Assembly: GCA_963924555.1 (NCBI GenBank)
Contig: OZ004595.1
Location: 744,001-808,000, forward strand
Source of the DNA: Crambe crambe
Taxonomy: Eukaryota > Porifera > Demospongiae > Poecilosclerida > Crambeidae
Length of the DNA: 64,000 nucleotides
Direction of reading: 5' to 3'
Shown piece after piece: positions 1,237 to 59,636 of this stretch. Position 1 is the stretch's first letter, and the number at the start of each line of letters is the position of its first letter. The notes beneath the pieces were generated by a model, which saw nothing but the letters and a program-made list of their open reading frames with translations, did not search any database and was not told the DNA's origin. The position numbers and the translations under genes were made by a program.

Positions 1237-4045
1237 ATGCCACATGGTAACATATTTTGAGCCAGAGAAAGACTACATGTAGCTGTATAGACAAGAACAG
1301 AATTATGAAGCTAAGCTACAGTTGATCTAGTTGTTATTTGGGTGTGGTTTGGTCAAAAGTCAGCCAAAAATTTTAGGGCTGGAGCTAGCTATTTTATAGT
1401 GGTACAGCTTGCGACCACACAGTGGCACATAGCTACTGTGCAAAGTGCACCATTTAGGCCCAGAAAATTTTTTTCTATTTTAGGTGTCTCAGATCCAATC
1501 TGGTGCAATCTGGAGCATCAAATTTATCCAACTGAACTTGGATAAACTATCAGTTTCATCTGTGTGAATGTGCAGCACCATTAGGTTATTCAAAGCATTT
1601 GACTCACTGTAGTTCTCAGGTAAGGACAATCCATACATTTGAGAATGCTAGTCTCTGAGTGATACAACTTTATTATATTATCATGAGCTTTAAATAGTGC
1701 CAAAATTTATAAATCACATTGTGCACCCACCCATGGTTCACCATGCTTTCTTAAATCAGCTAGGCTATAGAATTACAACTTCATTACTCTTATCAGTGAG
1801 TGGGTGGATGAATACCACAATTGTAATGGAGTAATGAAGTGTGAAATTGAAATTCCTGTAAGTTACATGTAGTGTTCATCCATCCACTAATTAATTAGTT
1901 GGTGATAAATCTTTTAAGTGGGACGGGATGTGGTATGAATAATTCACACATCTGATGAGTGAACACTTGCAACACCTAAAACTAATACTGTTGAATATCA
2001 GACCGAGCCATATGACAATACGCTGCTTATGAATAATTTGAGAGGGACCCAATTCATCCCTGTCCAGAGTCTCCACTACAGTTTTCAGGGTTTTAAAAAA
2101 TGTGGTTTATGTTCACTGAAATCCAACTATATTAACATCTTAATTGAGATCAATTTAATACTTCATACATAATCAATGGCTGATCCAGGGGGCATGGTGC
2201 AAGCACATGGACCCTCTTTCCAAAAACTCTGGATCAGCTCCTGGTGAGTGTAGGTCCCCCCAACTAGAAAATGGGGACCCCAGGATCCCCACTTCTCTAA
2301 TGATTTGGGGATGGTGGGCCCTGATTTTGGGGGGTTCCCATATCACTGTTACAATGGTTCGACTTACATCGCTGATCTTTGCTCCACACAGCCTTCTCTC
2401 CCAACACCACACAAGGTAACATTGAGCTTGGTCTTGGAGTTAGTGACACTACAGGGAGACAGTCATGTCAACTGATGGCTTACATTGGTTCAGTATGAGC
2501 TAGGTTTCCATGGTGAAATGTCAAGGAAGGATTCATTAAGTAATCAACCCTCATGAAAACACTTTCTCTTGAAGCTGAACCACTATAATTGTAGGGTGGT
2601 CTGGAAGCATTCACCCTCAGAAGTATCACTGCATCAGTACTTAATTCCTGCACAATGTTCACAATGTTGGGTATTCACTGTTGATTTGGGGGGGGGGGGG
2701 GGGGGAGACAGCCCCCCAGATTTCTACGTCACTGTACTATGTTGAGAATTACTCACAGATAGAATTGATTCTTTTTTATGGAGCAACAATGACAGGGACC
2801 AGTTATTTATAGGATATACAAAATTCTAAAATGAAGAAAAGTCAACTCTTCTTGAAGTACAGGTTACTAACAGCCATGATACCGCCATTATAGATGAAAG
2901 ATGGTGCTCCCTTGCACTTATTGTGGTACTCGTAACCATGGCATCAAAAGGAACTTATTATTATGAAATACAAACTCATGGAAATAAAAGTTACTAAGCG
3001 ATCCTATTAAAATAATTTCACCTGAAAGATGAAGATGAACTAGTAGCTAACTTCTCTCAAAGATGCTGATCTCACGAGTCTTGCCAAAGAGGCATTAGAG
3101 ACAGGATCCATCCCCCAAACTATCTTTGATTTGTTCATATCCTGTTCACTCAAGATCAGGTACTTTTTATGTATGTGTACGAGATGGTATTCATTATGAG
3201 AAATGGCTAAACTTACTTTCTCAATTTATTTCGAACTACCTCACATAAGGAATCAAATAAAACCAATACGAAGAAACAGGCAAAAGGTTTGACATCTCCA
3301 GTTCCTTCTAACTGGAAACTATAAGGTAAAATCATGTTTATCATACAGGAACGTGGTTTTGTGGTAGAATTGTTATGTGAGGTCAAATGAAATATGCTGT
3401 ACACATGCATGAATTTGATACTGTGGAGATCATGTAGCTAGCTAACAACACTCCATCTTGTTGCATCATAATCACCTTGCAAATTCTATACTCACAGTAA
3501 TCTATCAGCTATGTCGCTACTGTAGCTTGTTTACAAGCTTGTACAGCAGGACAATTAATTGTTTTATTTTCATTGTTGAATTTACTGTTGCATGTTTTTT
3601 GACTTTTATTATTATCACAGTTTTGAGTGTACTTAAATAATTGCCTATTTAGTTATAATCATGATCATGGCACTGAATTAAGTCAGCCTATATTCTAATT
3701 ACCAGGGACCTACTCTGACTTAAAATGCTGCCATTAACTTATTGGCATGGAATTAAGTCACTGACCTATTTACTTGATTCAGTCGTGGCATGTTTGACTT
3801 AGCTAAATCAACGCCATGAGTGACTCAAGGCATGGATGACTTAATTCAATGCCATGAGTAACTCAAAGCATTTATGTCAAGTTCTGCACAACCGGGGTGT
3901 GGCATTTAGTAGGCTGTAAATTATCTTACCTGGTGGATCTCAATCACATGATCCTAACACTCCTAAAAATCTGCCATGCCCTTATTTTGTTCTTGAACAA
4001 TTTTCTTTTTCAGAGCTATATAGTATCTCTTAGCGGCTGTGGTTT
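1237..4045 (+). repeat. Intergenic duplication, unit 1, ending in an orphan gene-start region
   Basis: This stretch recurs almost base for base as unit 2 (4,056-7,150) and in part as unit 3 (56,815-59,640). It starts at a GCCACATGGTAACATATTT block and includes a G18 run at 2,688-2,705. At its right end (about 3,930-4,045) it carries the upstream region and first bases of the family's exon 1 (TATCTCTTAGCGGCTGTGG). It breaks off before the ATG where unit 2 begins. The short reading frames in it are not conserved as protein and I see no gene. Confidence 0.85.
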
Positions 4046-6553
4046 AAATGAAAGAGCCACATGGTAACATATTTTGAGCCAGAGAAAGACTACATGTAGC
4101 AATATAGACAAGAACAGAATTATGAAGCTAAGCTACAGTTGATTAGTTGTTATTGGGTGTGGTTTGGTCAAAAGTCAGCCAAAAATTTTAGGGCTGGAGC
4201 TAGCTATTTTATAGTGGTACAGCTTGCGACCACACAGTGGCACATAGCTACTGTGCAAAGTGCACCATCTAGGCCCAGAAAAATTTTTTCTATTTTAGGT
4301 GTCTCAGATCCAATCTGGTGCAATCTGGAGCATCAAATTTATCCAAGTCTACCTCTTAATTTGCAACTGAACTTGGATAAACTATCAGTTTCATCTGTGT
4401 GAATGTGCAGCACCATTAGGTTATTCAAAGCATTTGACTCACTGTAGTTCTCAGGTAAGGACAATCCATACATTTGAGAATGCTAGTCTCTGAGTGATAC
4501 AACTTTATTATATTATCATGAGCTTTAAATAGTGCCAAAATTTATAAATCACATTGTGCACCCACCCATGGTTCACCATGCTTTCTTAAATCAGCTAGGC
4601 TATAGAATTACAACTTCATTACTCTAATCAGTGAGTGGGTGGATGAATACCACAATTGTAATGGAGTAATGAAGTGTGAAATTGAAATTCCTGTAAGTTA
4701 CATGTAGTGTTCATCCATCCACTAATTAATTAGTTGGTGATAAATCTTTTAAGTGGGAGAGGATGTGGTGTGAATAATTCACACATCTGATGGGTGAACA
4801 CTTGCTAACACCTAAAACTAATACTGTTGAATATCAGACCGAGCCATATGACAATATGCTGCTTATAAATAATTTGAGAGGGACCCAATTCATCCCTGTC
4901 CAGAGTCTCCACTACAGTTTTCAGGATTTTTAAAAAATGTGGTTTATGTTCACTGAAATCCAACTATATTAACATCTTAATTGAGATCACTTCATACATA
5001 ATCAGTGGCTGATCCAGGGGCCATGGTGCAAGCCCATGGACCCTCTTTCCAAAAACTCTGGATCAGCTCCTGGTGAGTGTGGGTCCCCCCAACTAGAACA
5101 GGATCCCCACTTCTCTAATGATTTGGGGATGGTGGGCCCTGATTTTGGGGGGTTCCCATATCACTGTTTATACAATGGTTCGACTTACATCGCTGATTTT
5201 TGCTCCACACAGCCTTCTCTCCCAACACCACACAAGGTAGGTCTTGGAGTTAGTGACACTACAGGGAGACAGTCATGTCAACTGATGGCTTACATTGGTT
5301 CAGTATGAGCTAGGTTTCCATGGTGAAATGTCAAGGAAGGATTCATTAAGTAATCAACCCTCAAGATAACACTTTCTCTTGAAGCTGAACCACTATAATT
5401 GTAGGGTGGTCTGGAAGCATTCACCCTCAGAAGTATCACTGCATCAGTACTTAATTCCTGCACAATGTTCACAATGTTGGGTATTCACTGTTGATTTGGG
5501 GGGGGGGGGGGGGAGACAGCCCCCCAGATTTCTACGTCACTGTACTATGTTGAGAATTACTCACAGATAGAATTGATTCTTTTTTATGGAGCAACAATGA
5601 CAGGGACCAGTTATTTATGTGAATTTATAGGATATACAAAATTCTAAAATGAAGAAAAGTCAACTCTTCTTGAAGTACAGGTTACTAACAGCCATGATAC
5701 CGCCATTATAGATGAAAGATGGTGCTACCTTGCACTTATTGTGGTACTCGTAAGCAAGGCATCAAAAGGAACTTATCATTATGAAATACAAACTCATGGA
5801 AATAAAAGTTACTAAGTGATCCTATTAAAATAATTTAACCTGAAAGATGAAGATGGACTAGTAGCTAACTTCTCTCAAAGATGCTGATCTCACGAGTTTT
5901 GCCAAAGAGGCATTAGAGACAGGATCCATCCCCCAAACTATCTTTCATTTGTTCATATCCTGCTCACTCAAGATCAGGTACTTTTTATGTATGTGTACCA
6001 GATGGTATTCATTATGAGAAATGGCTAAACTTACTTTCTCAATTTATTTTGAACTACCTCACATAAGGAATCAAATAAAACCAATACGAAGAAACAGGCA
6101 AAAGGTTTGACATCTCCAGTTCCTTCTAACTGGAAACTATAAGGTAAATAATCATACAGGAACGTGGTTTTGTGGTAGAATTGTTATGTGAGGTCAAATG
6201 AAATATGCTGTACACATGCATGAATTTGATACTGTGGAGATCATGTAGCTAGCTAACAACACTCCATCTTGTACATCATAATCACCTTGCAAATTCTATA
6301 CTCACAGTAATCTATCAGCTATGTTGCTACTGTAGCTTGTTTACAAGCTTGTACAGCAGGACAATATTATTAATTGTTTTATTTTCATTGTTGAATTTAC
6401 TGTTGCATGTTTTTGACTTTTATTATTATCACAGTTTTGAGTGTACTTAAATAATTGCCCATTTAGTTATAATCATGATCATGTCACTGAATTAAGTCAG
6501 CCTATTATTCTAATTACCAGGGACCTACTCTGACTTAAAATGCTGCCATTTAA

Positions 6554-6892: not shown

Positions 6893-7159
6893 ATTGGCAT
6901 GGAATTAAGTCACTGACTTAATTCAGTATACTCGTGGCATGTTTGACTTAGCTAAATCAACGCCATGAGTGACTCAAGGCATGGATGACTTAATTCAATG
7001 CCATGAGTAACTCAAAGCATTTATGTAGGCTGTAAATTATCTTACCTGGATCTCAATCACATGATCCTAACACTCCTTAAAATCTGCCACGCCCTTATTT
7101 TGTTCTTGAACAATCTTCTTTTTCAGAGCTATATCGTATCTCTTAGCGGCTGTTGTGGT
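6893..7159 (+). promoter_or_regulatory. Upstream region of copy B with clustered inverted GAATTAAGTCA / GCCATG motifs
   Basis: Between about 6,895 and 7,025 the motifs GGCATGGAATTAAGTCA, TGACTTAATTCA and GCCATGAGTGACTCA recur in both orientations. The site TGACTCA is a perfect match to the AP-1/bZIP consensus. Downstream are CACATGATC, CCACGCCCTTATTTTGTT and a pyrimidine stretch ending in CAG shortly before the ATG. The block is conserved before copy E and in the orphan unit 1. The CACATGATC and CCACGCCCTTATTT words are also kept before copy D (about 44,322-44,355). A promoter role is inferred. Confidence 0.4.
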
Positions 7160-10100
7160 ATGGCAGAGGGAAAATCGAAACAGGTGAGCTGTAATGCATG
7201 CTCATCAGTAGGTTTAGAAATCCAGATGAAGAACTTGTTCACTACACGCATAGATGCCATTTATAAGGCTATGGCGCCTAAAATATTGGGGAGGACAGCT
7301 GCATTGGTCGGCTAATTCGCCTCAAAACTGCAGCTGTTTGTTTGTTATGTACAGCCTGTCCTGCTATTTATCAGTTGGCCAATTTATCTTTCTAGTAGAG
7401 ATAGCAGTTAGCTAGGTCTGCAAGTTCTTTTAGACTTGACTGGTAGATAGTGTTACTGCTAGTTTATAGTTTGACTATCTAGATGTTTCCTCCCTCTACA
7501 GAAACTCGAGAGAGAGCTTAAGACAGCATTGGCGGTAAGTTGTCATGAAAGTAGCTGCTGTGATGTTGTGTTGGTCCAGTGCCCTCTGGTCAGTCACTGC
7601 AAAGCACCTTAGGCCCATAGAAACAGTCTGTCAAAGATGAGGGGTGCTCGTATGCAGGGACAGGTTGCTTATTGGAATGCTGGACTACTCAACCTTAAAG
7701 CAGTTACCTCCAGCATGTGGGCCCCAATGTTTCGTACAGATTGTCAACACACCTCAGCTTGTGTGCCTACTAGACCCCTGTCCATTTTTATAGGCCAAAT
7801 GCTGACTCGGCATAATTCCTAGTGCCCCTCTGCCGAGGGAAGTGGGTGGAGTCTTGTGACTCACAGACCCCAGGACAATATTGAGCACACTTTTTAATGA
7901 ACATTCTCAATGTTTGGAGTGTACAGCTCAAACACCTTGCATGCTAGACCCCTGCTCAATTTTTTACAAGCCATTACCAACCCATTCAAGTGTGCCGAGG
8001 GAAATGGGCGGGGTCTAGTGACTCATGGACCCCATGACCTTATAGAGCATGATGTGCTCTACAGGTTCTCCAAGTTTGGAGGCCGTAGCTCGCATGCTGT
8101 GGGTGTGGTGATTTTTTTTTGTGGTGCATGATGGCTGTCTTTGTGTGTTGGTTGTATGGTTGTCTCACCTTCTCTCTCTCACTCCTCACAGTTGAAGGCA
8201 TTCTATCAGAGTATGATAGAGCACTGGGAACAGGTGAGTGATGAGTGTAGCAGTGGTGTGATGAGGGCGTGGCATGTGGCCCAGTCCATACCTGGTGTGT
8301 ATTCCATGTGTGCAGAAATTGTCTGCTGCTCAGAAGAAGCTCAGTCAGCCTTCCCTGAGTAAAGCAAGGCAGTCTGAGCTTGAGAAGGAGGTGAAGTATT
8401 GTGAGGGAGAGATCCAGAAATGGAAAAAGGTTCTCCTTACTCAAGAAGAAGAAATAAAGGAGCTGGAAGATGCCCTGGGGCAACTTACTTGTAAGTATAA
8501 AGATTTAGCACTAATTAGATGATGTAATGATACATTATACAAGTTAAGTAATAGCCCAGAGCTATAAAATAGTGTGCGCTCAGCTGGGAGGTGTAATTAG
8601 TAATTAATAGTAACATGTAAGAATTAATTAGTGACTAATTAAAAGTAGGTGAAATTAATAAATGTTTGAGTGGCCATAACTTTTGAAGGGAAAGTGCTAT
8701 AGTCTTGAAATAAGAACCATTCTGCTCAGAAAATTCTACTCTTTCTTTGTGTCACTACTAGCATTACCTAAGAGAGTGTTAGGGAGGTGGTAATCCATTT
8801 TGGCATGTATTTTATGACCTTATTATAATTTTATCAGCAGAATGTGACTGTTGTGATGTCTTGTAACACTTATTATAAACTGTTATGTAAATAATGTTCT
8901 TTTCCCCTCTTCAGCTGCTTCCCAGAAGCCTGACTCTTCTTCCCAGAAAGAAACACAGAGTGAGTATTGTAAGCCACAATAAGTGGTCCCATTGACAGCA
9001 ATGTACACATACAATGGTGTGCTTTAATTGAGGTTCTTAGGCAATAACATAATTTATTCAGTCAATGATTTACTTTACAGAATCAACATCAAGTGACTTG
9101 CATCTAGATGATGCAACTAGAGAGAAAATGGTAAGTGTAATTAATGGAGGGGGTGTGTGTATGCAGATATCATTCATGTGGGGTATGAACTCTATGATCG
9201 CTCTCCTGGTTTCTCTGATTCAGTTCAACCAGTCCATGACGTGGGGCCACGTTGAGGCAATCATCATCAAGGTCCTGATTGTGGGGGCTGCTGGAGTCGG
9301 CAAATCCCTTTTTTTGTCTCGTCTCCTTGGTGTCGCTATTTCTCTCATCCGAAACAGTACCGGAGTGGTCGAGAAAGCCCAGAGGGTCAACTGTCAAAGG
9401 TTGGGCACAACAGATCACTTAAAGAACATAGTTTGGGAAGTGGTCGGACCGAAAGAACTGATGAAACTTCTTGCCGATGCCATAACCTCAGGAATTGAGA
9501 AGTTCACTGCTTCTGTTTCCCCTCCACATGCATCTCGTCGTTCCAATAATGGATCAGGTTCTCATTCGACCAGTTCTGCTGATGCAAGCTACTCTACAGC
9601 TAGAACTACCGTCCTTCAGCTGATAGGTCGTTCCAAGGAAGGTAAATTGCTGAAGATGACTTGGATCTATCTGATAGATAGTGGAGGGCAGCCTCAATTC
9701 CACGAGCTTCTTACAGCATTCATCAGAAACACCACTTTAGGTATCTTTGTCTTCAGGCTCTCAGATCGGCTGGACGATAAGCCACGGATTGAATACTACA
9801 AAGGTGGAAAGCCACTGGGTGAGCCTTATCCTTTCCCCATGAGCCACAAGGAGATCTTCCAACACTGTATCCAGACCATTTCTTCCCTCCCTTCCACTTC
9901 TCCGAAGGATCAGGCCCCAACTTGCCCGAAGATTCTCGTCTTGGGAACTCATCGAGACGAAGAGAGCAAGTGTTCTGAAACACGTGATGAAAAAGAGAAG
10001 ATTCTCAGGGATGTCTTGCACAAAGGACCAAAACCTGACTCAGCCATCTCAGAAGACTTACTTTATTACGGAAATAAGTGCATCTTTCCTTTGAATGCTA

Positions 10101-11838
10101 AATCACCCGAGAAGCAGGACGAGGAGATCATCGGTGATATTCGAGAAGAAATAGTGCGTCTTGCACCTCAACCCCAATCCATCCCACTGCAGTATTACGC
10201 ACTCGAACTGGAACTTGAAAAAAAAGAAAAAAGTGTGATTAGCTTCAAAGAATGTTTGGACATTGCCAAGCATTCCCTGCTTTTCGAAGAGACTGCAGCC
10301 AAAGCTGCCATCCATCATCTTGATAGCCTCAACCTCATCCAACACTTCCCAGAGTGTGCCAAAGAGGTCATATTCTGTGACCCCAACATCCTCCTCAACA
10401 AGGTGAATGAGCTGATAGAGAAAAGCTACAGTTTGAGGGGTTTGACCCCTTCAAAACCCGAGGTACTTGTAGGAGGAGACTGGATTAAATTCCACATGCG
10501 TGGCAGGGTGACCTTACCCATGCTTAAAGAGTTTCCTGAAGGCTTTGTGCAAAATCTTTACGATCATCACACTTTGGCCAAGATCTTCGAAGACCTGCTC
10601 ATTTTCACTCGTTTCGAGCATGATGATAGCTTTTTCATGCCTGCCCTGCTCGATGTTAAAGATCTGAAGCTCATCCAGCGACCGACTAAGACATGCCTGA
10701 TCATAGCGTTCTCCTCTGGATATGCCCCCTTGGGGCTTTTTTCTTCCTCCATTGCCTTTCTGACTTCAAGCAATAATCGATGGCCTTCTCCATGGATGTT
10801 CTTGTTCGAAAAAGGTCAACTCTTCCGAAATGTGATCAGCTTCAATGTGGAATCAGTGGTGGTCACTCTTATTGACCGCTCCAGTCACTTTGAGGTTCAT
10901 GTGCAACTGCAGGGAAGCATGCAAGAAGACCCGTCTATGATGCCTGAAGTGTGCAAAACTGTACGACAAGGGATCAAGGAGGCCATCAAGCAATCGATGA
11001 AGAAACGCCACATCTGTAATGCATCGTACAGTGAGAGTTTCTTCTGCCCGTGTGACTCATATGCTACCTACCACTTGGCTAGTGTGAAGAAAGCATTTGG
11101 AAAGAAATATCATAGGTGTTGTGATGTCCACACTGGGAATAATGGAGCTTTGGAAGAACATCACTACCAGTGGCTGGGAATAGAACCCTCTACACCATCA
11201 AAAGGTAGGAATAACAATTTAGTTGTGGCACTGGTCTAAATCGTCCTCTATTATGTTCTTTATAGCCACTTCTGGTTCTCTTGGGATGGCTGCTCTTCCT
11301 GCAGTTAGTGAGTACTTGAAAGACGTGAACAGAGAAGAGGTGATCAGACTGGGGCTAGCTCTTGGATTGTTATACAGTAGACTTGAAGGGATGAAAATGT
11401 TTCCTGAAGATGTCATAGCTGCATGGTTGAGGGGAGACGACGAATGTGGTTTTCCCAGCTGGACTAGACTGGCCACAGCTCTTGATAAAACTGGTCACAC
11501 AGCTATTGCCTCCAAAGTCAGGAAAGGTGAGCACAGTCAAAATCAATGAGATTACGAACACTTAATTAGTCGATCTGTTTCCTATTTTATAGAAAAGCTC
11601 AGTCAAGTCCTCACTACTCCTTCACTTCCAAGACCTACACCAGCAGGTGAGCAGTTTAACAGAGTGTGTATTATCATACTGGTACATGGTACTGTTAATG
11701 AATGCAGGTCCTTCTGTCAACCCTTTACCTGGTGAGGTGGACAGTGCTGCAAACAGTTCTCCTAATGACAGGCAACAAAGGTCTCACCAAACTTCTTCCA
11801 CTCCTCAAAGACGTGATAAATTTTGCCGATTTTTGTGA
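7160..11838 (+). CDS. Copy B: coiled-coil / Roc-like GTPase / COR-like / Death domain protein
   Basis: Ten exons give about 931 aa: 7160-7183, 7502-7534, 8192-8233, 8316-8490, 8915-8959, 9081-9130, 9224-11204, 11266-11526, 11593-11646, 11708-11838. All junctions have GT-AG and matching phase. Residues 9-91 (exons 2-4) form a charged coiled coil. Exon 7 starts at residue 124, with P-loop GAAGVGKS (144-151), DSGGQ (275-279) and THRD (365-368), the pattern of Roc GTPases. A COR-like winged helix and a Cys-rich segment (FCPC, CC, QWLGI) follow. Exon 8 is a Death domain (EEVIRLGLALGL to WLRGDDE, SWTRLATAL). A Pro/Ser tail follows. The Roc-COR-Death order recalls DAPK/Roco proteins, so a scaffold or signalling role in cell death or immunity is inferred. 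Introns are shared with C, D and E. Confidence 0.88.
9131..9223 (+). other. Intron 6 of copy B: 93 nt, in frame, no stop
   Basis: The intron has a good GTAAGT donor and TCTGATTCAG acceptor, but its length is a multiple of three and it has no stop codon, so retention would add 31 residues. These include a hydrophobic run (residues encoded about 9,161-9,220, with FMWGM and IALLVSLI). Copy E has the same arrangement (61,605-61,697). In copy C the intron is 91 nt and retention would shift the frame, so splicing is needed there. Confidence 0.55.
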
Positions 11839-15613: not shown

Positions 15614-16765
15614 GCGGGGTCTATTACGGGCACCAGACTGCTCTAATCAGAGATACCACACTATACCAGCACTAAGACACTCTTGAGAGTCTCTGTACTG
15701 CATGTAATTAGAGTTGACACCCTGTGATGGAATCAATTTAGGATCACAGAGAAGGACCGGATGAAAAAGAGAAGGACCGGGCTCTATTGCGGGCACCAGA
15801 CTGCTCTAATTAGAGAGACCACACTATACCAGCACTAAGACACTCTTGAGAGTCTCTGTACTGCATGTAATTAGAGTGGCAGAATCAAATTAGAATCAAA
15901 GAAAAGGACTGGATGAAAAGAGAAGGGCATAAAAGTCAAGCACTCAGATTACTGAATGCCTGTGCCTCATACTTGCAACAATAGTTCACCTCAACTTGGC
16001 CTGCATGCAAACAATATTTCAGACTTGCACACTCAAGCTATCCAAAGAGGGGTGGAGCTGCACATCTGCAGGGTATTTCGGAGACTTTAAGGGGTTAACA
16101 TACAATAATGTTGTCATGGGTAGATTGGATGAGTAGAAAGGCTGTGACAATTTGGTGACCACAGACTTATTAATATCCGAGTAACAGGTAATTGATGTGC
16201 TTGTGACAGATTTCATGAAAAGATCACATAACATTATGTAGTGATTTTTTCCCTCCACTATGCTAGAAATCAGATTTTTGCTCGCAGAAAGTATAGTTTT
16301 GGTGATAGGAGGGTCAAACTATGACACCGGGACCTCTATACAGTGCTCTACCACATACTTCATGGAATCCCATCTAAGCTGATTACATGGCGTACCAAAT
16401 ATATAATCACAGAGAAGGACCAGATGAAAAGAGGAGGACCAGGCTCTATTGTGGGCACCAGACTGCTCCAATTAGGGAGACCACACTGCTAAATCACTCT
16501 TGAGAGTCTATGTACTGAATGTAAAGAGTTGACACCCTGTGACGGAGTTAAATTAGAATTACATAGAAGGACCGGATGAAAAGAGAAGGACCAGGCTCTA
16601 TTGTGGACATCAGACTGCTCTAATTGGAGAGACCATATTATACCAGCACTAAAACACTCTTGAGAGTCTCTGTACTGCATTAAAATTGACACCCTGCGAA
16701 TTAGAAGGACCGGATGAAAAAGAGAAGGACCGGGCTCTATTGAAGGCACCAGTAGTGGAGACAAC
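15614..16765 (-). repeat. Left KDZ tandem array (minus orientation)
   Basis: About five incomplete copies of the unit, landmarked by GGGCACCAGACTGCTCTAAT at about 15,628, 15,794, 16,454 and 16,609 and a broken copy at about 16,745. Each continues through CACTCTTGAGAGTCTCTGTA and AAGGACCGGATGAAAAAGAG. Between about 15,930 and 16,390 the array is interrupted by unrelated sequence in which I see no gene. Confidence 0.8.
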
Positions 16766-25394: not shown

Positions 25395-26270
25395 AAGTTT
25401 GGTCTCCCTAATTAGAGCAGTCTGGTGCCCATGATAAAGCCCGGTCCTTCTTTTTTTCATCCGGTCCTTCTCTGTGATTCTAATTTGATTCCATCACAGG
25501 GTATCAACTCTAATTACATGCAGTACAGAGATTATAGTGTCTTAGTGCTGGTATAGTGTGGTCTCTTTAATTAGAGCAGTCTGGTGCCCACAATAGAGCC
25601 CGGTCCTTCTCTTTTTCATCCGGTCCTTTTAATTTGATTCCATCACAGGGTATCAACTCTAATTACATGCAGTACAGAGACTCTCAAGAGTGTCTTAGTG
25701 CTGGTACAGTGTGGTCTCTCTGATTAGAGCAGTCTGGTGCCCGCAATAGAGCCCAGTCCTTCTCTTTTTCATCCAGTCCTTCTCTGTGATTCTAATTTGA
25801 TTCCATCACAGGCTGTCAACTCTAATTACATGCAGTACAGAGACTCTCAAGAGTGTCTTAGTGTTGGTCCAGTGTGGTCTCTCTGATTAGAGCAGTCTGG
25901 TGCCCGCAATAGAGTCTGGTCCTTCTCTTTTTCATCTGGTCCTTCTCTGTGATCCTAATTTGATTCCGTCACAGCACATCAACTGAAGTACAGAGACTCT
26001 CAAGAGTGTCTTAGTGCTGGTATAGTGTGCTCTCTCTAATTAGAGCAGTCTGGTGCCCGCAATAGAGCCCAGTCCTTCTCTTTTTCATCCAGTCCTTCTC
26101 TGTGATCCTAAATTGATTCCATCACAGGATGTCAACTCTAATTACATGCAGTACAGAGATTCTCAAGAGTGTCTTAGTGCTGATATAGTGTGGTCTCTCT
26201 AATTAGAGCAGTCTGGTGCCCGCAATAGAGCCCGGTCTTTCTCTTTTTTCGTTCGGTTCTTCTTTATCAT
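25395..26270 (+). repeat. Right KDZ tandem array (plus orientation)
   Basis: Six units are landmarked by GTCTCTCTAATTAGAGCAG and variants at about 25,405, 25,560, 25,710, 25,876, 26,029 and 26,193, a period of 150-166 bp. The unit contains a short palindrome (CTCTAATTAGAG), two GGTCCTTCTCT boxes and ACAGAGACTCTCAAGAGTGT. It is the reverse complement of the left array. The 3' end decays into TCATTATCATTATAAT. Confidence 0.85.
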
Positions 26271-26300
26271 TATCATTATAATTTTAACCTTCACAGAGTG

Positions 26301-26672
26301 TCAATTCTAATTAAATGCAGTATCATTTCACTCATTTTACCCAATCCTTCACTCATCCTTCATGGTCCTTCTTCAGTCCTCTTTGTTTGATCACTTCTTG
26401 CAGCACAGCTAAACAGCTAGCATAATAGAATATGTTAGTACTGTAATGATTTTGGATCTACTATGACGTCATTTTTAGCCGGTCCTTCTGCTTCTACTGT
26501 TTTCGCTATATTTGATAGATGATTATTGTGACCGATTTTTAATCTAGACATTATGCTGATTTCCATTTGAACTAAAGTCTCCATGTAGTGATGATCTTTT
26601 ACCATACTTAAACCCAAGTGGTTTTAGTGGTGATGACCCCTTACCATGCACACCTTTACCTGTCCTCCCCAG
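26301..26672. other. Flank between the KDZ element and delta-catenin, no gene seen
   Basis: A few further GGTCCTTCT-like boxes occur (near 26,365 and 26,480), so the element's true end may lie here. From about 26,590 the sequence looks like a normal intron ending in TGTCCTCCCCAG before the first delta-catenin exon. Confidence 0.4.
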
Positions 26673-30583: not shown

Positions 30584-33500
30584 ATGGATGAATCTAAACA
30601 GGTGAGCTATAATGCATGCTCATCAGTAGGTCTAGAAATCCAGATGAAGAACTTGTTCACTGATGCCATTAAGTATCAGGCTATGGCGCCTAAAATATTG
30701 GGGAGGACAGCTGCATTGGTCGGCTAATTCGCCTCAAAACAGCAGCTGTTTGTTTGTTATGTACAGCCTGTCCTGCTATTTATCAGTTGGCCAATTTATC
30801 TTTCTAGTAGAGATAGCAGTTAGCTAGGTCTGCAAGTTCTTTTAGACTTGACTGGTAGATAGTGTTACTGCTAGTTTATAGTTTGACTATCTAGATGTAT
30901 CCTCCCAATACAGGAACTCGAGAGAAAGCTTGAGGATGCATTGTTGGTAAGTTGTCATGAAAGTAGCTGCTGTGATGTTGTGTTGGTCCAGTGCCCTCTG
31001 GTCAGTCACTGCAAAGCACCTTAGGCCCATAGAAACAGTCTGTCAAAGATGAGGGGTGCTTGTATGCAGGGACAGGTTGTATTGGAATGCTGGACTACTC
31101 AACCTTAAAGCAGTTACCTCCAGCATATGGGCCCTAAATGTTTCGTACAGATTGTCAACACACCTCAGCTTGTGTGCCTACTAGACCCCTGTCCATTTTT
31201 ATAGGCCAAATGCTGACTCGGCATAATTCTAGTGCACCTCTGCCGAGAGAAGTGGGTGGAGTCTAGTGACTCACATACCCCAGGACAATATTGAGCACAC
31301 TTTTTAATGAACATTCTCCACGTTTGGAGTGTACAGCTCGAACACCTTGCATGCTAGACCCCTGCTCAATTTTTTACAAGCCGTTACCAACCCATTCAAG
31401 TGTACTGAGGGAAATGGGCAGGGTCTAGTGACTCATGGACCCCATGACCTTATAGAGCATGATGTGCTCTACAGGTTCTCCAAGTTTGGAGGCCGTAGCT
31501 CGCATGCTGTGGGTGTGGTGATTTTTTTTTGTGGTGCATGATGGCTGTCTTTGTGTGTTGGTTGTATGGTTGTCTCACCTTCTCTCTCTCACTCCTCACA
31601 GGGGAAGGCAGTCTATCAGGGGGAGATAGAGGGCTATGAACTGGTGAGTGATGAGTGTAGCAGTGGTGTGATGAGGGCGTGGCATGTGGCCCAGTCCATA
31701 CCTGGTGTGTATTCCATGTGTGCAGAGATTGTCTGCTGCTCAGAAGAAGCTCAGTCAGCCTTCCCTGAGTGAAGCAAGGCAGTCTGAGCTTGAGAAGGAG
31801 GTGAAGCGTTGTGAGGGATGGATCCAGGATTATAAAAAGTATCTCCTTGGTAGTGAAGAAGAAATAAAGGAGCTACAAGATGCCCTGGGGCAACTTACTT
31901 GTAAGTATAAAGATTTAGCACTAATTAGATGATGTAATGATACATTATACAAGTTAAGTAATAGCCCAGAGCTATAAAATAGTGTGAGCTCAGCTGGGAG
32001 GTGTAATTAGTAATTAATAGTAACATGTAAGAATTAATTAGTGACTAATTAAAAGTAGGTGAAATTAATAAATGTTTGAGTGGCCATAACTTTTGAAGGG
32101 AAAGTGCTATAGTCTTGAAATAAGAACCATTCTGCTCAGAAAATTCTACTCTTTCTTTGTGTCACTACTAGCATTACCTAAGAGAGTGTTAGGGAGGTGG
32201 TAATCCATTTTGGCATGTATTTTACGACCTTATTATAATTTTATCAGCAGAATGTGACTGTTGTGATGTCTTGTAACACTTATTATAAACTGTTATGTAA
32301 ATAATGTTCTTTTTCCCTCTTCAGCTGCTTCCCAGAAGCCTGACTCTTCTTCCCAGAAAGAAACACAGAGTGAGTATTGTAAGCCACAATAAGTGGTCCC
32401 ATTGACAGCAATGTACACATACAATGGTGTGCTTTAATTGAGGTTCTTAGGCAATAACATAATAATTTATTCAGTCAATGATTTACTTTACAGAATCAAC
32501 ATCAAGTGACTTGCATCTAGATGATGCAACTAGAGAGAAAATGGTAAGTGTAATTAATGGAGGGGGTGTGTGTATGCAGATATCATTCATGTGGGGTGTG
32601 AACTCTATGGTTGCTCTCCTCATTTCTGTTTCAGTTCAACCAGTCCATGACATGGGGCCACGTTGAGGCAATCAGCATCAAGGTCCTGATCGTGGGGGCT
32701 GCTGGAGTCGGCAAATCCCTTTTTTTGTCTCGTCTCCTTGGTGTCGCTATTTCTCTCATCCGAAACAGTACCGGAGTGGTCGAGAAAGCCCAGAGGGTCA
32801 ACTGTCAAAGGTTGGGCACAACAGATCACTTAAAGAACATAGTTTGGGAAGTGGTCGGACCGAAAGAACTGATGAAACTTCTTGCCGATGCCATAACCTC
32901 AGGAATTGAGAAGTTCACTGCTTCTGTTTCCCCTCCACGTGCATCTCGTCGTTCCAATAATGGATCAGGTTCTCATTCGACCAGTTCTGCTGATGCAAGC
33001 TACTCTACAGCTAGAACTACCGTCCTTCAGCTGATAGGTCGTTCCAAGGAAGGTAAATTGCTGAAGATGACTTGGATCTATCTGATAGATAGTGGAGGGC
33101 AGCCTCAGTTCCACGAGCTTCTTACAGCATTCATCAGAAACACCACTTTAGGTATCTTTGTCTTCAGGCTCTCAGATCGGCTGGACGATAAGCCACGGAT
33201 TGAATACTACAAAGGTGGAAAGCCACTGGGTGAGCCTTATCCTTTCCCCATGAGCCACAAGGAGATCTTCCAACACTGTGTCCAGACCATTTCTTCCCTC
33301 CCTTTCACTTCTCCTCTGAAGGACCAGGCCCCAACTCACCCAAAAATTCTCGTTTTGGGAACACATCGAGACGAAGAGAGCAAGTGTTCCGAAACACGTG
33401 ATGAAAAAGAGAAGATTCTCAGGGATGTCTTGCACAAAGGACCAAATCCTGACTCAGCCATCTCAGAAGACTTACTTTATTACAGAAATAAGTGCATCTT

Positions 33501-44422: not shown

Positions 44423-47400
44423 ATGGAAGAGGGAAGATCCCAACAGGTGAGCAATAATGCATGCTCATCAGTAGGTCTAGAAATCCAGATGAAGAACTTG
44501 CCAGATTAGCTATGGCGCCTAAAATATTGGGGAGGACAGCTGCATTGGTCGGCTAATTCGCCTCAAAACAGCAGCTGTTTGTTTGTTATGTACAGCCTGT
44601 CCTGCTATTTATCAGTTGGCCAATTTATCTTTCTAGTAGAGATAGCAGTTAGCTAGGTCTGCAAGTTCTTTTAGACTTGACCGGTAGATAGTGTTACTGC
44701 TAGTTTATAGTTTGACTATCTAGATGTTTCCTCCCAATACAGGAACTCAAGAGAGAGCTTGAGGATGCATTGTGGGTAAGTTGTCATGAAAGTAGCTGCT
44801 GTGATGTTGTGTTGGTCCAGTGCCCTCTGGTCAGTCACTGCAAAGCACCTTAGGCCCATAGAAACAGTCTGTCAAAGATGAGGGGTGCTCGTTTGCAGGG
44901 ATGGGTTGTGTATTGGAATGCTGGACTACTCAACCATAAAGCAGTTACCTCCAGCATGTGGGGCCTAATGTTTCGTACAGATTGTCAACACGCCTCAGCT
45001 TGTGTGCCTACTAGACCCCTGTCCATTTTTATAGGCCAAATGCTGACTCGGCATAATTCTAGTGCATCTCTGCCGAGGGAAGTGGGAGGAGTCTTACGAC
45101 TCACAGACCCCAGGACAATATTGAGCACACTTTTTAATGAACATTCCCCACGTTTGGAGTGTACAGCTCGAACACCTTGCATGCTAGACCCCTGCTCAAT
45201 TTTTTACAAGCCGTTACCAACCCATTCAAGTGTACCGAGGGAAATGGGCGGGGTCTAATGACTCATGGACCCCATGACCTTATAGAGCAAGATGTGCTCT
45301 ACAGGTTCTCCAAGTTTGGAGGCCGTAGCTCGCATGCTGTGGGTGTGGTGATTTTTTTTTGTGGTGCATGATGGCTGTCTTTGTGTGTTGGTTGTATGGT
45401 TGTCTCACCTTCTCTCTCTCACTCCTCACAGTGGAAGGCAGACTATCAGTGGGGGATAGAGCACTATGAACAGGTGAGTGATGAGTGTAGCAGTGGTGTG
45501 ATGAGGGCGTGGCATGTGGCCCAGTCCATACCTGGTGTGTATTCCATGTGTGCAGGAATTGTCTGCTGCTCAGAAGGAGCTCAGTCAGCCTTCCCTGAGT
45601 GAAGCAAGGCAGTCTGAGCTTGAGAAGAAGGTGAAGGATTGTGAGGGAAGGATCCAGGATTATAAAAAGTATCTCCTTGGTAGTGAAGAAGAAATAAAGG
45701 AGCTACAAGATGCCCTGGGGCAACTTACTTGTAAGTATAAAGATTTAGCACTAATTAGATGATGTAATGATACATTATACAAGTTAAGTAATAGCCCAGA
45801 GCTATAAAATAGTGTGCGCTCAGCTGGGAGGTGTAATTAGTAATTAATAGTAACATGTAAGAATTAATTAGTGACTAATTAAAAGTAGGTGAAATTAATA
45901 AATGTTTGAGTGGCCATAACTTTTGAAGGGAAAGTGCTATAGTCTTGAAATAAGAACCATTCTGCTCAGAAAATTCTACTCTTTCTTTGTGTCACTACTA
46001 GCATTACCTAAGAGAGTGTTAGGGAGGTGGTAATCCATTTTGGCATGTATTTTATGACCTTATTATCATTTTATCAGCAGAATGTGACTGTTATGATGTC
46101 TTGTAACACTTATTATAAACTGTTATGTAAATAATGTTCTTTTTCCCTCTTCAGCTGCTTCCCAGAAGCCTGACTCTTCTCTCCAGAAAGAAACACAGAG
46201 TGAGTAAGCGGTCCCATTGACAGCAATGTACACATACAATGGTGTGGTTTAATTGAGGTACTTAGGCATAATAACTTATTCAGTTAATGCTTTATCTTAC
46301 AGAACTGACATCAAGTGACTCACATCTAGATGATGCAACTAGAGAGAAAATGGTAAGTGTGATTAATGGAGTGGGTGTGTGTAGAAGAGAAAAGGCAGCT
46401 CTTGATCAAAAAATTGAGCTTAGCAAAAAAGAGCTAGACAATGAAGTTAGTTTTAAAAATATTTTAAAGTTCTGTTACAAATTCAAAACTTGCAGATCAG
46501 GGAGGAAGAATCACAACTGGAAGAATGGAAAAAGAGTAAGAGCAACATTTTAAATAATTCTTCTGCTGATAACATGTTTAGCTAAATTCTTTTATTTCAT
46601 ATGAAGGTCGTCAAAAGGACCTGGAGAGTCAGAAAAGGCAGGAGCTAGATGATGTAGACTCTGCACTTACAGAAGAGGGCAAAGGTATATTATAGCTATC
46701 TGCTAAAGTTTAAAAAACACAGTAAAGTCTATTAAATGTGTTCACTTGATGCCTAGATCATCCTCAATTCTTAACCAAATTCCTAATTTCAAAGACCAGT
46801 GCCTGAGTGTTTTAAATGTGAAATTTGGTCAAGAATTGAGAGCAAATATTCAAGGGATCAAGCGAATTAGTAGAATGTTTCAACCATTAGCTACATATTT
46901 AATACCTCCATTACGTATATAGTAGTTCTCTGTGAAGATGAGAAATATCCTGGAGTTGTTGTGGTCAAAAATCAAGTCTTTTCTGAAAAGATCTCGTGTG
47001 TGAGACAGGAACTTGACTACAGAGAGGATATGGGAATATCTGTACTCATTCCCAAAGATTCTGTTTCACCAGATGAATCGCTGGACATAGTGATTCAGCC
47101 CAGTTTCTCTGGATCCTTTGAGATGCCTGAAGATACAGAACCAGCTAGTCCAGCTTATCTCATTGAAATTAGCAAGGAAACTGAACTGAGGAAAGCTATC
47201 ATAGTGAGGATGCAACACTATGCCAATCTGAAGAGTGATAATGATTGCAAAGACATGGTGTTCTTGAGGGCTAACTCAGATCCTGAATACAGGGGGTCCA
47301 ATCCAGTCTATGTCTTCAAGGAGGTTGAAGGAATCGAGGTGAAGTATAGTGTTGATGATGCTGGATATCAAGTGGGGGAGATAGCACTTAAACAGTTCAG

Positions 47401-49730
47401 TTGGTGGAGAATTGGAAAGAAAAAGACAGAAGGTATTGACATCTTCATGTTAGTTATAATTAGTAATACTGTTCTTCTTGTAGCAAAAGAAATTAAAAAA
47501 TTGTATTCAGCACGACTTTATAAGTCATTGGAAGCTACTAAAGTCACTGCTGTGTTCTGCATGTGTCCTTACCAAATGTACTACACCCAGGTAAGGTTAG
47601 CTAGGTATGTCATTATTTTATGAACCTTGGTTTTGCCTCATTTTCTACAGTATTGTGATGACTACATTGCAAGTCATTACACTGGAATGACATGTAAGGC
47701 TGAGAACTGCTCCACTTACAATGCATTGAAAATCACTTCCGATAAAGTCACTCTTGTCAAAGGGAACAAAGCCAAGTGCATAATGGATAAATCAAAAGTG
47801 AGTGCATGCCCTACATGGGGAAAGGAAAGTATGAACAACAGTACCTCTGAGTAATGGACACAACCTTGTTAAAAGGTTTGTCCTCTTTTGAAGTGTCCTT
47901 TATTGGCTCATGGAGGTTCCACTGTTTCCACAAAAAATTCAACCTTGATAATTTTAACATTTGTACTGTATGATGATTATTAGATTTCAAAGGCAGAGAT
48001 TGACCTTCCAGAGGTAATATCCAAGAAAGCTGATAAGATACCGGACTACCCTCCCAGGATCTTCATCACCTGCACAGGGGGTGGGGCTGAGGAGGCAGAG
48101 TTGATGACACTGAGAGTCACTGGGCTAGACGAGGAGTGCAACTTTGAGATACCCATTCCAACCACTCCAAGTACTGCTAAAACTGACTTGGTTAAAATGT
48201 AATATTCTGTATTTTGCATGTAGCTTCACCACCCCCAACTGTGACTCACCTAGAAGTTAATACTCAGCTTCTTCAGGTGATAGGAATAAGATTGCCCACT
48301 TCAATCATTAATATGATTACTATCTCTTGATGATATCACAGAAAGCCAAGGCTTCATTAGAAAGGAAAACATGGAACACAAGAAGCTTGAAGAAAAGTGA
48401 TCTGTTGATCAGTATAACAATGATGATCAGTCTCATGAAGGAAGTGGAGAGACTTGTTCAGTAAGTATTATAGTTGTGCATGAGTTAAAAGCTCAAAATC
48501 ATGATTGTATAACTACTGTGCATGGGGAAGTCCCTATCAGATAAAAAGGATAAACTGTAGACTTTGGGGGAAAACCTCCAAAAGAATCTTCTAACAGGGC
48601 AAAAAGTTGGGTCCCAAGTGTCCATTATTGGAGGTTCCACTCTAATAGCTAGTCACATTGTACCAGCTGTAGAGTCAGACATAATATAATATCTGATTAT
48701 TTCAGTGACCCAAGTTCCATGAAATTACTTGTGGAGACAGTGGAACAGATACAGAGTCAAACAGACACAATAGTCAGATCCACTGAAAGTACAAAGGTAT
48801 GGTATGGATACAGTATATAGTCTGGTCCACTATTCCACTACAATGTTGTGTGAAGAACATAGAAATGGAGATTTCCAAAGTTATCACTACTTCTCAGCAG
48901 CTGAAAATAGGGGCCATGGTCAAACTGAAACACTGTGAAGGTACATGAAGCCAGCATGTATGTAGCTAACTAGCATGATCATAATATGTAGATGAGAGAG
49001 ATTGGCTGATGGCTGTGGACATGCTTGTGGGTAATGCTGCTGAACTCATGAGCTGTATTGAGGAGATGCTCAAAGTTGCAGAACAGGATCAACTCAAATC
49101 CAAAAAGGATGATATCCCTAAATGTAAGTCGTGACACTTAAGATGTAGCCTGGAGCAAACTAATTTTTTTTATAGCTGTTGACGTCCACATGTCATCCTT
49201 GCCTGCCTGTGTTCGCCCATTCCTGGAGCAGCAATTGGACTGGGACCATGGGGGAGTGGACAGGGACCTGAACGCCATAGCCGAGCACATCTTGGACTGG
49301 GAAGAGAAGCTCTCAACTCCTTTGGAACTCACTCGCACTGAAATACATGACATCAAGTTCTTATACAGCAACCAGCCTGTTCTCCTAAGGTTAGTAGCTG
49401 CTCACTATTGGGGGGGGGGGGATCATCCATTTGTTTGTTTGTTCATTTATTGTTTGCAGGAGAGAGGTTTTAAGAAAGTGGAAAGAGAAGAAGGGTCTCC
49501 ACTGCACGTACGGGAACCTGCTGAAAGTGTGCTGTGAGGGAGGGGACACACACACTGCTGAAACCATTTGCGAAGTGCTGAGGAAAAAGAAAGAGGGTGG
49601 TAAGTAAAAGTGACTGCAATATAATATAGCTAATCCAAATGTGTTCCATGCAGGACTTGGAGTGATTAACAGACCAAATGGCAGTCAAGAGGAAGAGATG
49701 AAGACAGATCTAGCTATATCCAGATCATGA
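44423..49730 (+). CDS. Copy D: family N-terminal coiled coil joined to ZU5-UPA-Death domain
   Basis: Twenty exons give about 812 aa. The first six (44423-44446, 44743-44775, 45432-45473, 45556-45730, 46155-46199, 46303-) belong to the shared module with near-identical introns. Exon 6 then reads through the usual donor into new coiled-coil codons to 46,445. Exons 46496-46535 and 46607-46684 extend the coiled coil. 46926-47432 is a ZU5-like domain (GISVLIPKDSV, FEMPEDTEPASPAYLIEI, RMQHYANL, DMVFLRA). 47484-47590, 47651-47797 and 47984-48170 resemble UPA (TAVFCMCPYQMYY, PPRIFITCTGGG). Helical exons 48224-48276, 48342-48460, 48706-48796, 48856-48940 and 48992-49123 follow. The Death domain is 49176-49389 plus 49460-49599 (EIHDIKFLYSNQPVLLRREV, LRKWKEKKG, TYGNLLKVCC). 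The last exon is 49654-49730. ZU5-UPA-Death is the PIDD/UNC5/ankyrin-type signalling tail. Confidence 0.85.
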
Positions 49731-50606: not shown

Positions 50607-50970
<364 letters not shown>

Positions 50971-57714: not shown

Positions 57715-58178
57715 GGGAGAGGGGAGGGGGGGAGGGAGGGGAGGGGAGGGAGGGAGGGAGGGGAGGGGGGAGGGAGGGGGAGGGGGGTTACTTGACTAGT
57801 TGAAAATATTCATAACTGCATCATGACAATTATGAGAAAACTGGCTGCACGTAGTTTTTGGGCATTGATGTTGTGAATGACATGGCAGGTATATAATATC
57901 CACTCACTCCACTTGACGTATGAGATCTTTACGAGGTTCTATTAGCTCTCAGTATGTGGAGCAACTGTTAACAATAACTCAATGTCTATTACAAGTTTGT
58001 GTTTGTGGTCAGTAATGAATATTCTTAACCAGTGAGGTCTCGTCTCGTACCCGGTGTAAAGTAGCTACCGTTGTAAAGCTTTCTTTTGAGACCAAAATCA
58101 AATTGATGAGGGTAGCTAGCATCATGGAGGTATGGATGGGAAAAAGAATGGCAGCTGTAAATAGTGGGTGGGAGGCCA
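57163..58178. mobile_element. Insertion in unit 3, with inverted copy of upstream motifs and a G-rich tract
   Basis: About 1,016 bp split the unit between AAGCTGAAC and CACTATAATT, which are adjacent in units 1 and 2. Inside, about 57,365-57,530 is the reverse complement of 59,250-59,420 (GAATTAAGTCAGTGACTTAATTC block). There is also a G39 run at 57,675-57,713 followed by GGGA repeats to about 57,787. No coding sequence. The mechanism is unclear; no target duplication seen. Confidence 0.55.
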
Positions 58179-59339
58179 CCACTATAATTGTAGGGTGGTC
58201 TGGAAGCATTCACCCTCAGAAGTATCACTGCATCAGTACTTAATTCCTGCACAATGTTGGGCATTCACTGAGGGGGACTAAGCCCCATAGTTAATTTGGG
58301 AGGGGGGACAGCCCCCCAGATTTCTACGTCACTGTACTATGTTGAGAATTACTCACAGATAGAAATGATTCTTTTTTATGGAGCAACAATGACAGGGATC
58401 AGTTATTTATGTGAATTTATAGGATATGCAAAATTCTAAAATGAAGAAAAGTCAACTCTTCTTGAAGTACAGGTTACTAACAGCCATGATACCGCCATTA
58501 TAGATGAAAGATGGTGCTCCCTTGCACTTATTGTGGTACTCGTAAGCAAGGCATCAAAAGGAACTTATTATTATGAAATACAAACTCATGGAAATAAAAG
58601 TTACTAAGCGATCCTATTAAAATAATTTCACATGAAAGATGAAGATGAACTAGTAGCTAACTTCTCTCAAAGATGCTGATCTCACGAGTCTTGCCAAAGA
58701 GGCATTAGAGACAGGATCCATCCCACAAACTATCTTTGATTTGTTCATATCCTGCTCACTCAAGATCAGGTACTTTTTATGTATGTGTACGAGATGGTAT
58801 TCATTATGAGAAATGGCTAAACTTACTTTCTCAATTTATTTCGAACTACCTCACATAAGGAATCAAATAAAACCAATACGAAGAAACAGGCAAAAGGTTT
58901 GACATCTCCAGTTCCTTCTAACTGGAAACTATAAGGTAAAATCATGTTTATCATACAGGAACGTGGTTTTGTGGTAGAATTGTTATGTGAGGTCAAATGA
59001 AATATGCTGTACACATGCATGAATTTGATACTGTGGAGATCATGTAGCTAGCTAACAACACTCCATCTTGTACATCATTATTACCTTGCAAATTCTATAC
59101 TCACAGTAATCTATCAGCTATGTCGCTACTGTAGCTTGTTTACAAGCTTGTACAGCAGGACAATTAATTATTTTATTTTCATTGTTGAATTTACTGTTGC
59201 ATGTTTTTGACTTTTATTATTATCACAGTTTTGAGTGTACTTAAATAATTGCCCATTTAGTTATAATCATGATCATGGCACTGAATTAAGTCAGCCTATT
59301 ATTCTAATTACCAGGGACCTACTCTGACTTAAAATGCTG

Positions 59340-59636
59340 CCAAATGTGAATACTTATATTGGCATGGAATTAAGTCACTGACTTAATTCAGTGCCATGTA
59401 TACTCGTGGCATGTTTGACTTAGCTAAATCAACGCCATGAGTGACTAAAGGCATGGGTGACTTAATTCAATGCCATGAGTAACTCAAAGCATTAATTTTA
59501 TGTAGGCTGTAAATTATCTTACCTGGATCTCAATCACATGATCCTAACGCTCCTTAAAATCTGCCACGCCCTTATTTTGTTCTTGAACAATCTTCTTTTT
59601 CAGAGCTATATCGTATCTCTTAGCGGCTGTTGTGGT
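59340..59636 (+). promoter_or_regulatory. Upstream region of copy E
   Basis: This is the same clustered GAATTAAGTCA / GCCATG motifs and CCACGCCCTTATTTTGTT segment as upstream of copy B. The AP-1-like TGACTCA present before copy B reads TGACTAA here. Promoter role inferred from conservation next to the start codon. Confidence 0.35.

Follow-up and report, generated by a model that had tools for sequence, protein, structure and literature searches.

Hypervariable exons beside near-invariant introns in a dispersed gene family of the sponge Crambe crambe

How do exons come to change almost exclusively by amino acid replacement when the introns between them barely change at all? The question arises from a 64,000-nucleotide stretch of the sponge Crambe crambe (GenBank assembly GCA_963924555.1, contig OZ004595.1, here C18, positions 744001-808000; hereafter the window, whose own coordinates and forward strand are used below unless stated otherwise), which carries four copies, B, C, D and E (loci L027, L028, L029 and L030), of one multi-exon gene family. 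The original prediction singled out exons 2-4 of these copies, and its counts were reproduced when we repeated them: 31 of the 83 codons vary in the amino acid encoded, one more (residue 83, exon 4 codon 50) varies only synonymously, the 82-nt intron 3 is identical in all four, and the four exon 3 peptides read as quoted. The observation is both real and large, and strong diversifying selection acting on one side of a helical recognition domain explains it best. The fuller reading that we favour, and hold to be probable while well short of certain, is that of a large, dispersed, intracellular recognition family in which selection diversifies a helical face, gene conversion joins heads (the region of exons 2-4) to tails, and a sequence cassette around exon 3 is held by a function at the DNA or RNA level.

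A replacement-rich head in a dispersed family

In the genome searched (143 Mb, 119 contigs), the DNA of 7502-8490 matched 32 copies on C18 (two of them split in two pieces), 7 on C17 and 1 on C8 among the best 40 of 94 candidates scored. A 29-mer spanning the junction of exon 3 and intron 3, allowing up to two mismatches, was found at 77 places (18 on C8, 2 on C15, 10 on C16, 15 on C17 and 32 on C18), and its reversed control at none. These make 76 loci, because two of the C8 places belong to a single locus, L059, in which a 49-nt tandem duplication spans the junction. The genome-wide collection of copies proposed with the original prediction accordingly stands, within one genome, at 76 loci on five contigs. 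Exon 3 could be read in all 76, with a length of 42 nt in 74 of them, 60 nt in L054 (by an 18-nt in-frame tandem duplication) and 36 nt in L069 (by a 6-nt deletion). The 74 copies of 42 nt comprise 71 distinct versions, the three identical pairs each lying within one contig.

The variable residues, numbered as in copy B, fall at 15, 16 and 19 in exon 2 (7502-7534, 11 codons, read from the codon table), at 20, 23, 24, 26, 27, 30 and 31 in exon 3 (8192-8233, 14 codons), and at 34, 61, 65, 68, 69, 72 and 75 in exon 4 (8316-8490), which encodes the motif QPSLS and a putative second helix. The positions listed earlier are real, but an adjoining stripe (15, 20, 24, 27, 31 and 69) had been left out. 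Among the C18 copies, 28-32 of which are readable at each site, 15 sites exceed an amino-acid entropy of 1.8 bits, with 5-13 amino acids each; residue 19 shows one stop besides its amino acids, in exon 2 of L015. Entropy in exon 3 is high at the same seven residues on C18 (32 copies), C17 (15), C8 (16) and C16 (9), while that in exon 4 shows a rank correlation with C18 of 0.52 on C17 (10 copies) and 0.48 on C8 (5 copies). Third bases in exon 4 are cluster-specific (at residue 65, G in all 28 C18 copies but C in all 10 C17 copies; likewise T on C18 and C on C17 at residue 72), and the clusters have therefore diversified the same residues independently.

Seven codons of exon 3 are constant: of their 518 cells in the 74 copies, 3 depart from the common codon synonymously and 30 by replacement. 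The variable exon-3 codons, by comparison, include no stop in 518, with 27.9 expected from base frequencies, and 43% of their residues are Y, R or W, as expected for contact surfaces. That proline is missing from the variable sites carries no weight, since only 1.4 would be expected there. Four-fold codons at residues 20, 24 and 30 keep a single third base in 50 of 50 cases; two or three third bases are in use at residues 23, 26 and 27. Residue 83 is a synonymous hot spot on C18 (CTA 12, CTT 11, CTG 2, CTC 1, TTG 1 and GTG 1 in 28 copies), and the codons adjoining it are frozen.

The long exon 7 of the tail (9224-11204), compared in the 22 open copies of the 23 in which it is full, has 0.10 synonymous (pS) and 0.028 replacement (pN) differences per site (pN/pS 0.28) and is under purifying selection. 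At the 17 variable sites of the head pN reaches 0.53, giving a ratio of about 5 (uncorrected) against exon-7 pS, of 4.1 against their own path-counted pS (0.127), and a far higher one against the head introns. An estimate of a 100-fold rate excess from those introns was discarded after exon 7 gave its pS of 0.10.

Selection for amino acid diversity, the first of the causes offered in the original prediction, is needed to account for exons 2-4, given changes that are nearly all replacements and that recur, in exon 3, at the same sites in four clusters, and given the lack of stops among the variable codons of that exon. Its alternative of targeted hypermutation fails in a codon-blind form, third bases being too conserved: simulations removing only stops and proline give a third-base entropy of 27.4 bits and 65 states over the 17 sites, against 9.45 bits and 35 states observed. 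One result does weigh against our explanation, in that simulations with selection alone still give 53-57 third-base states rather than 35. Changes at third positions may be too conservative for selection to favour, or else change is restricted to the first two positions.

The near-invariant cassette around exon 3

Exon 3 sits in a near-invariant cassette, made up of the end of intron 2, the constant codons and intron 3, which recurs on five contigs. Compared with three C17 copies and one C8 copy, copy B is 29-59% identical by segment in intron 1, 65-88% in the bulk of intron 2 (7535-8191), 98-99% in the last ~90 nt of intron 2 and in intron 3 (8234-8315), and 51-61% and 60-70% in the first and second halves of exon 4. 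The pattern holds in ten more loci, on C8, C15, C16 and C17, where sequences begin to diverge broadly at exon 4. In the last 75 nt of intron 2, 37 of 46 loci equal the consensus, 6 have one difference and 3 (L018, L033 and L034) have many, probably through an indel shift; of another 16 loci with ~25 nt read, L075 and L084 differ. Among 17 C18 copies the nucleotide diversity (pi) of the last 90 nt is 0.0026. Intron 3, read in 60 of the 76 loci, has 3 variant letters in 3306 over its positions 1-58 (57 plainly aligning rows), the exceptions being L018 and L033, where it is 81 nt long, and L059 with its duplication; all 82 bases were matched at 26 of the best 40 places scored from 84 candidates. 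The introns are thus more frozen than first described, as the near-identity extends across contigs, and the contrast first drawn between them and the exons is overstated, as other parts of the same genes diverge more.

Because the clusters keep their own bases in intron 3, confined to the neighbourhood of positions 59-68, wholesale recent copying is unlikely, and we prefer to read the cassette as most likely held by constraint at the DNA or RNA level. One such function might be, for instance, that of a sequence defining a 42-nt exon too hypervariable to hold exonic splicing signals. Intron 3 is no neutral yardstick, being near-invariant across five contigs while the adjoining exon 4 has diverged. 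The cassette core has TGCATG upstream and GCATG downstream, presumably a splicing-factor motif, which we offer as a lead only. Its predicted RNA fold is no better than that of shuffled sequences (z 0.91), no Rfam match was found over 7000-9200 at E-values up to 1, and no cassette 24-mer was found in viral and prokaryote contigs. Along the introns, diversity within C18 and conservation between contigs are not significantly correlated (rho -0.26, p 0.18, 28 windows), and constraint is therefore argued for the cassette core only. For molecular evolution it is unusual, and puzzling, that a replacement-saturated exon should sit within near-invariant introns on five large contigs; this implies either a strong noncoding function that overlaps a hypervariable exon or a copying mechanism that maintains the cassette.

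Several further features lie in or beside this region. Small repeats arise inside the cassette, as in L054, L059 and L069. In copies B (8040-8504, reverse strand) and E (60517-60981, reverse strand), an antisense frame of 154 codons runs uninterrupted through exon 4, intron 3 and exon 3. In intron 4, 110 nt (8591-8700) are without variation among 17 C18 copies and include the palindrome TTAATTAGTGACTAATTAA, two bases of which differ in the C17 and C8 copies compared.

Exchange of heads and the variable face

The tails of copies B and L021 differ by 15 substitutions in the ~3,700 nt after 8490. Their heads are far less alike, with 33 differences in the 250 nt of exons 2-4 and 23 in the 657 nt of intron 2; a head was therefore exchanged. 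L042 and L048 have 0 substitutions over ~750 nt around exons 3-4, their differences lying outside. Conversion thus shuffles heads onto tails. The original prediction had considered conversion as a cause of the diversity itself; it moves heads, but is unlikely as the source, because variable sites 3-9 nt apart are statistically independent. Among 21 pairs of exon-3 variable sites the lowest p for linkage is 0.028, none being significant after correction, and over exons 2-4 in 26 C18 copies 7 of 136 pairs have p<0.05, with 6.8 expected. Pairwise differences among the 74 exon 3 sequences also fit independence (40 pairs with 3 differences, 33.6 expected), apart from the three identical pairs. Mosaic reshuffling was rejected as the source of diversity on both the site pairs and the distribution of pairwise differences.

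Ordinary concerted evolution would assign conversion a larger part, that of homogenizing the head, with the variable codons being old differences kept by selection. The two exchanges just described would fit it, as would the outcome of the exon-versus-intron comparison proposed with the original prediction: pi in 17 C18 copies is 0.026, 0.021, 0.004 and 0.011 for introns 1-4 but 0.083 for intron 5 and 0.070 for intron 6, and the third positions of exon 7 reach 0.107. We nonetheless regard this account as unlikely. Constant codons 3-9 nt from variable ones should carry old synonymous differences, yet they hold just three in 518 cells; no exon 3 is identical on two different contigs among the 74 copies compared; and the step at the 3' side is not sharp, third-position pi in the first 600 nt of exon 7 being 0.035 and 0.021, similar to intron 2.

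Alternatively, a dedicated process, templated or targeted, could rewrite exon 3 from a fixed template, mainly at first and second codon positions, in principle as diversity-generating retroelements do. A near-invariant cassette that stops at exon 4 on five contigs is what such a process might leave, as are variable codons in linkage equilibrium and third bases pinned more tightly overall than selection alone predicts. Differences at the variable sites are, moreover, already saturated at small flank distances (r -0.04), although the young pair L018/L033 shows hardly any change, and turnover is therefore non-uniform. Other evidence makes the process improbable. No template was found among the 76 junction loci, all of which are ordinary and gene-like (a template without the junction, and an enzyme elsewhere, lay outside this search), and the adenines of constant codons are kept (AAG in 72 of 74 copies, ATA in 69 of 74), a misfit with the known adenine-specific chemistry. 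Residues 20, 23, 24 and 31 each use two third bases, a purine and a pyrimidine; in two-fold codons such a difference replaces the amino acid, which points to selection on the protein. Exon 4 behaves alike with no cassette shared between contigs. In its boldest form, the proposal would take the invariant cassette as the outward sign of a dedicated system, in the germline (or in the soma), that rewrites chosen codons of a recognition surface and copies ~200 flanking nt faithfully across chromosomes, which we consider quite doubtful.

What the selected residues do depends on where they lie. Across residues 9-42 and again across 50-86, variability is most strongly periodic at 100 degrees per residue, a peak reached by 0 of 5000 and 1 of 5000 shuffles respectively, and hence not due to chance. 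In helix 1 the variable direction is turned by 99 degrees from the conserved hydrophobic one, and in helix 2 by 77 degrees to the same side (116 and 86 degrees when taken at 102.86 degrees per residue). With this equal handedness of offset, helices packed antiparallel by their hydrophobic sides would carry both stripes on one face, and helices packed in parallel would carry them on opposite faces. We infer that exons 2-4 encode an antiparallel hairpin with its conserved sides inward and the variable ones together on a single outer face. A hairpin would agree with the conserved QPSLS and with a mirror correlation between the helices; this correlation is best at sums of 88 (0.80) and 95 (0.75), and the turn is therefore not uniquely fixed.

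The original prediction left open a binding surface or a dimer-choice surface, and the geometry favours the former. Choice of coiled-coil partner, with the variable stripe setting which family members dimerize, would suit the heptad-like 3-4 spacing and the alternation of E and K at residues 9, 11, 13, 41, 49, 57 and 58. The stripe is not a coiled-coil core, however, because in each helix an angle of 77-116 degrees separates it from the conserved hydrophobic face; the variable residues do not occupy the core a/d positions of a parallel coiled-coil dimer, and Y, R and W are the commonest of them in exon 3, so that we think partner choice rather improbable. Relaxed constraint or pseudogene decay, suggested by single loci (L015, whose exon 2 has a stop and whose exon 7 is broken; L037, with a frameshift in exon 4; and L031 and L034, with no exon 2 found where expected), is scarcely credible when 22 of 23 full exons 7 are open with pN/pS 0.28, the codons adjoining variable ones are frozen and the exon-3 variable sites have no stops.

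Under diversifying selection on a binding face, the outer surface would bind a varied ligand or partner, such as a pathogen product or self marker, and binding might switch the putative GTPase and free the death-like domain for signalling. Selection for amino acid change at fixed residues, copy by copy, would generate the diversity, and gene conversion and unequal exchange could join new heads to existing tails. If this holds, an early-branching animal has a many-copy intracellular recognition repertoire built on a helical face, rather than on leucine-rich repeats or immunoglobulin folds, and coupled to a GTPase resembling LRRK and a death-like domain. How such animals recognize self and non-self, or pathogens, would then become directly testable.

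Putative signalling tails and likeness to known systems

The eight exons of copy B, separated by GT-AG introns, together encode 870 residues or more. Exon 1 (7160-7183; MAEGKSKQ, with ATG and GT donor) precedes the head, and exons 5 (8915-8959) and 6 (9081-9130) form a linker to exon 7, which is predicted to fold as a Roc-COR GTPase. Its Pfam matches to Roc (1.4e-5) and COR-A (4e-5) are both under the curated cut-off, and its structural model (predicted local distance difference test score 82.9) matches structures of bacterial Roco proteins and LRRK (3dpu, 6hlu, LRRK1 and LRRK2) with E-values of 1e-12 to 1e-14 and template modelling scores of ~0.5. Copy B has the Roc motifs GAAGVGKS (P-loop), DSGGQPQF and THRD; when it is aligned with 49 relatives (50 sequences), the P-loop G and K, DSGGQPQF and THR are invariant or nearly so, and the D of THRD is not. 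The exon has 512 relatives, and among the 120 listed the sole named protein is from the freshwater sponge Ephydatia muelleri. The death domain claimed earlier is represented by exon 8 (11266-11526), modelled as a death-like six-helix domain, but no Pfam Death match was found in copy B and five relatives. That the family consists of receptors, as was also claimed, is something that we infer.

Tails vary between copies. Within the stretch read, exon 7 is full in 23 of the 32 C18 copies, and a relative of exon 8 is full in 13 of these 23 and partial in two. The tail of L036 has an exon-8 relative and a second exon of Roc-COR type, whose Pfam match to COR-A (2e-5) is below the cut-off, and that of copy D (exons 2-4 at 44744-45730) has a weak match to ZU5 at 46874-47623, likewise below the cut-off (E 0.021). 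A natural reading of these layouts would be a recognition head on exchangeable signalling tails. At the place of the tail, L013 (its positions 2967-6106) has antisense open frames of 1040 and 775 amino acids, by eye retroelement-like with reverse transcriptase- and recombinase-like parts.

Exons 2-4 of copies C and E lie at 30915-31900 and 59980-60967. The preceding copy, L026, whose head lies left of the window, reaches into its left end (1-1013) with the 3' part of a Roc-COR exon, identified by self-alignment and a homology match at C18:741307. Upstream segments at 1239-3735, 4056-6550 and 58178-59493 are duplicated at ~94-95% identity, suggesting past growth of the array by duplication of units bigger than the gene. 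The window also contains a long perfect TC/GA simple repeat (50609-50966) and one repeat family in direct and inverted copies (25396-26322, 15615-15926 and 16396-16752).

Parts of this architecture are known from other systems. Conotoxins and other hypervariable families have a replacement-rich exon beside conserved introns, with position-specific codon retention; here, in contrast, the variable part belongs to a putative signalling protein with a predicted GTPase, and a near-invariant cassette recurs on several contigs. Diversity-generating retroelements produce combinatorial variation at many sites within fixed flanks, but the sponge family follows no adenine rule, the constant codons AAG, GCA, CAG, ATA and GAA keeping their adenines in nearly all 74 copies. 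Affibodies, designed helical binders, vary about 13-17 residues on one face of a helical scaffold, whereas this family is natural, with two apparent helices fused to the predicted GTPase and death-like domain. With the Roco proteins (LRRK1/LRRK2 and bacterial Roco) it shares the Roc-COR tandem, with P-loop, DSGGQ and, in copy B, THRD, and the fold match. It differs from them, in copy B, by a death-domain-like exon after COR and a hypervariable helical head; no kinase or leucine-rich repeat match was found in exons 7 and 8, the scan ending at 11526. NLR-type innate immune receptors, finally, are large expanded families that combine a recognition part, a nucleotide-binding switch and a death-fold domain in one protein. 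The likeness would lie in this combination within a large family, although here the nucleotide-binding exon would be Roc-COR rather than NACHT, the variable part a helical head rather than leucine-rich repeats, and the order of the parts is different.
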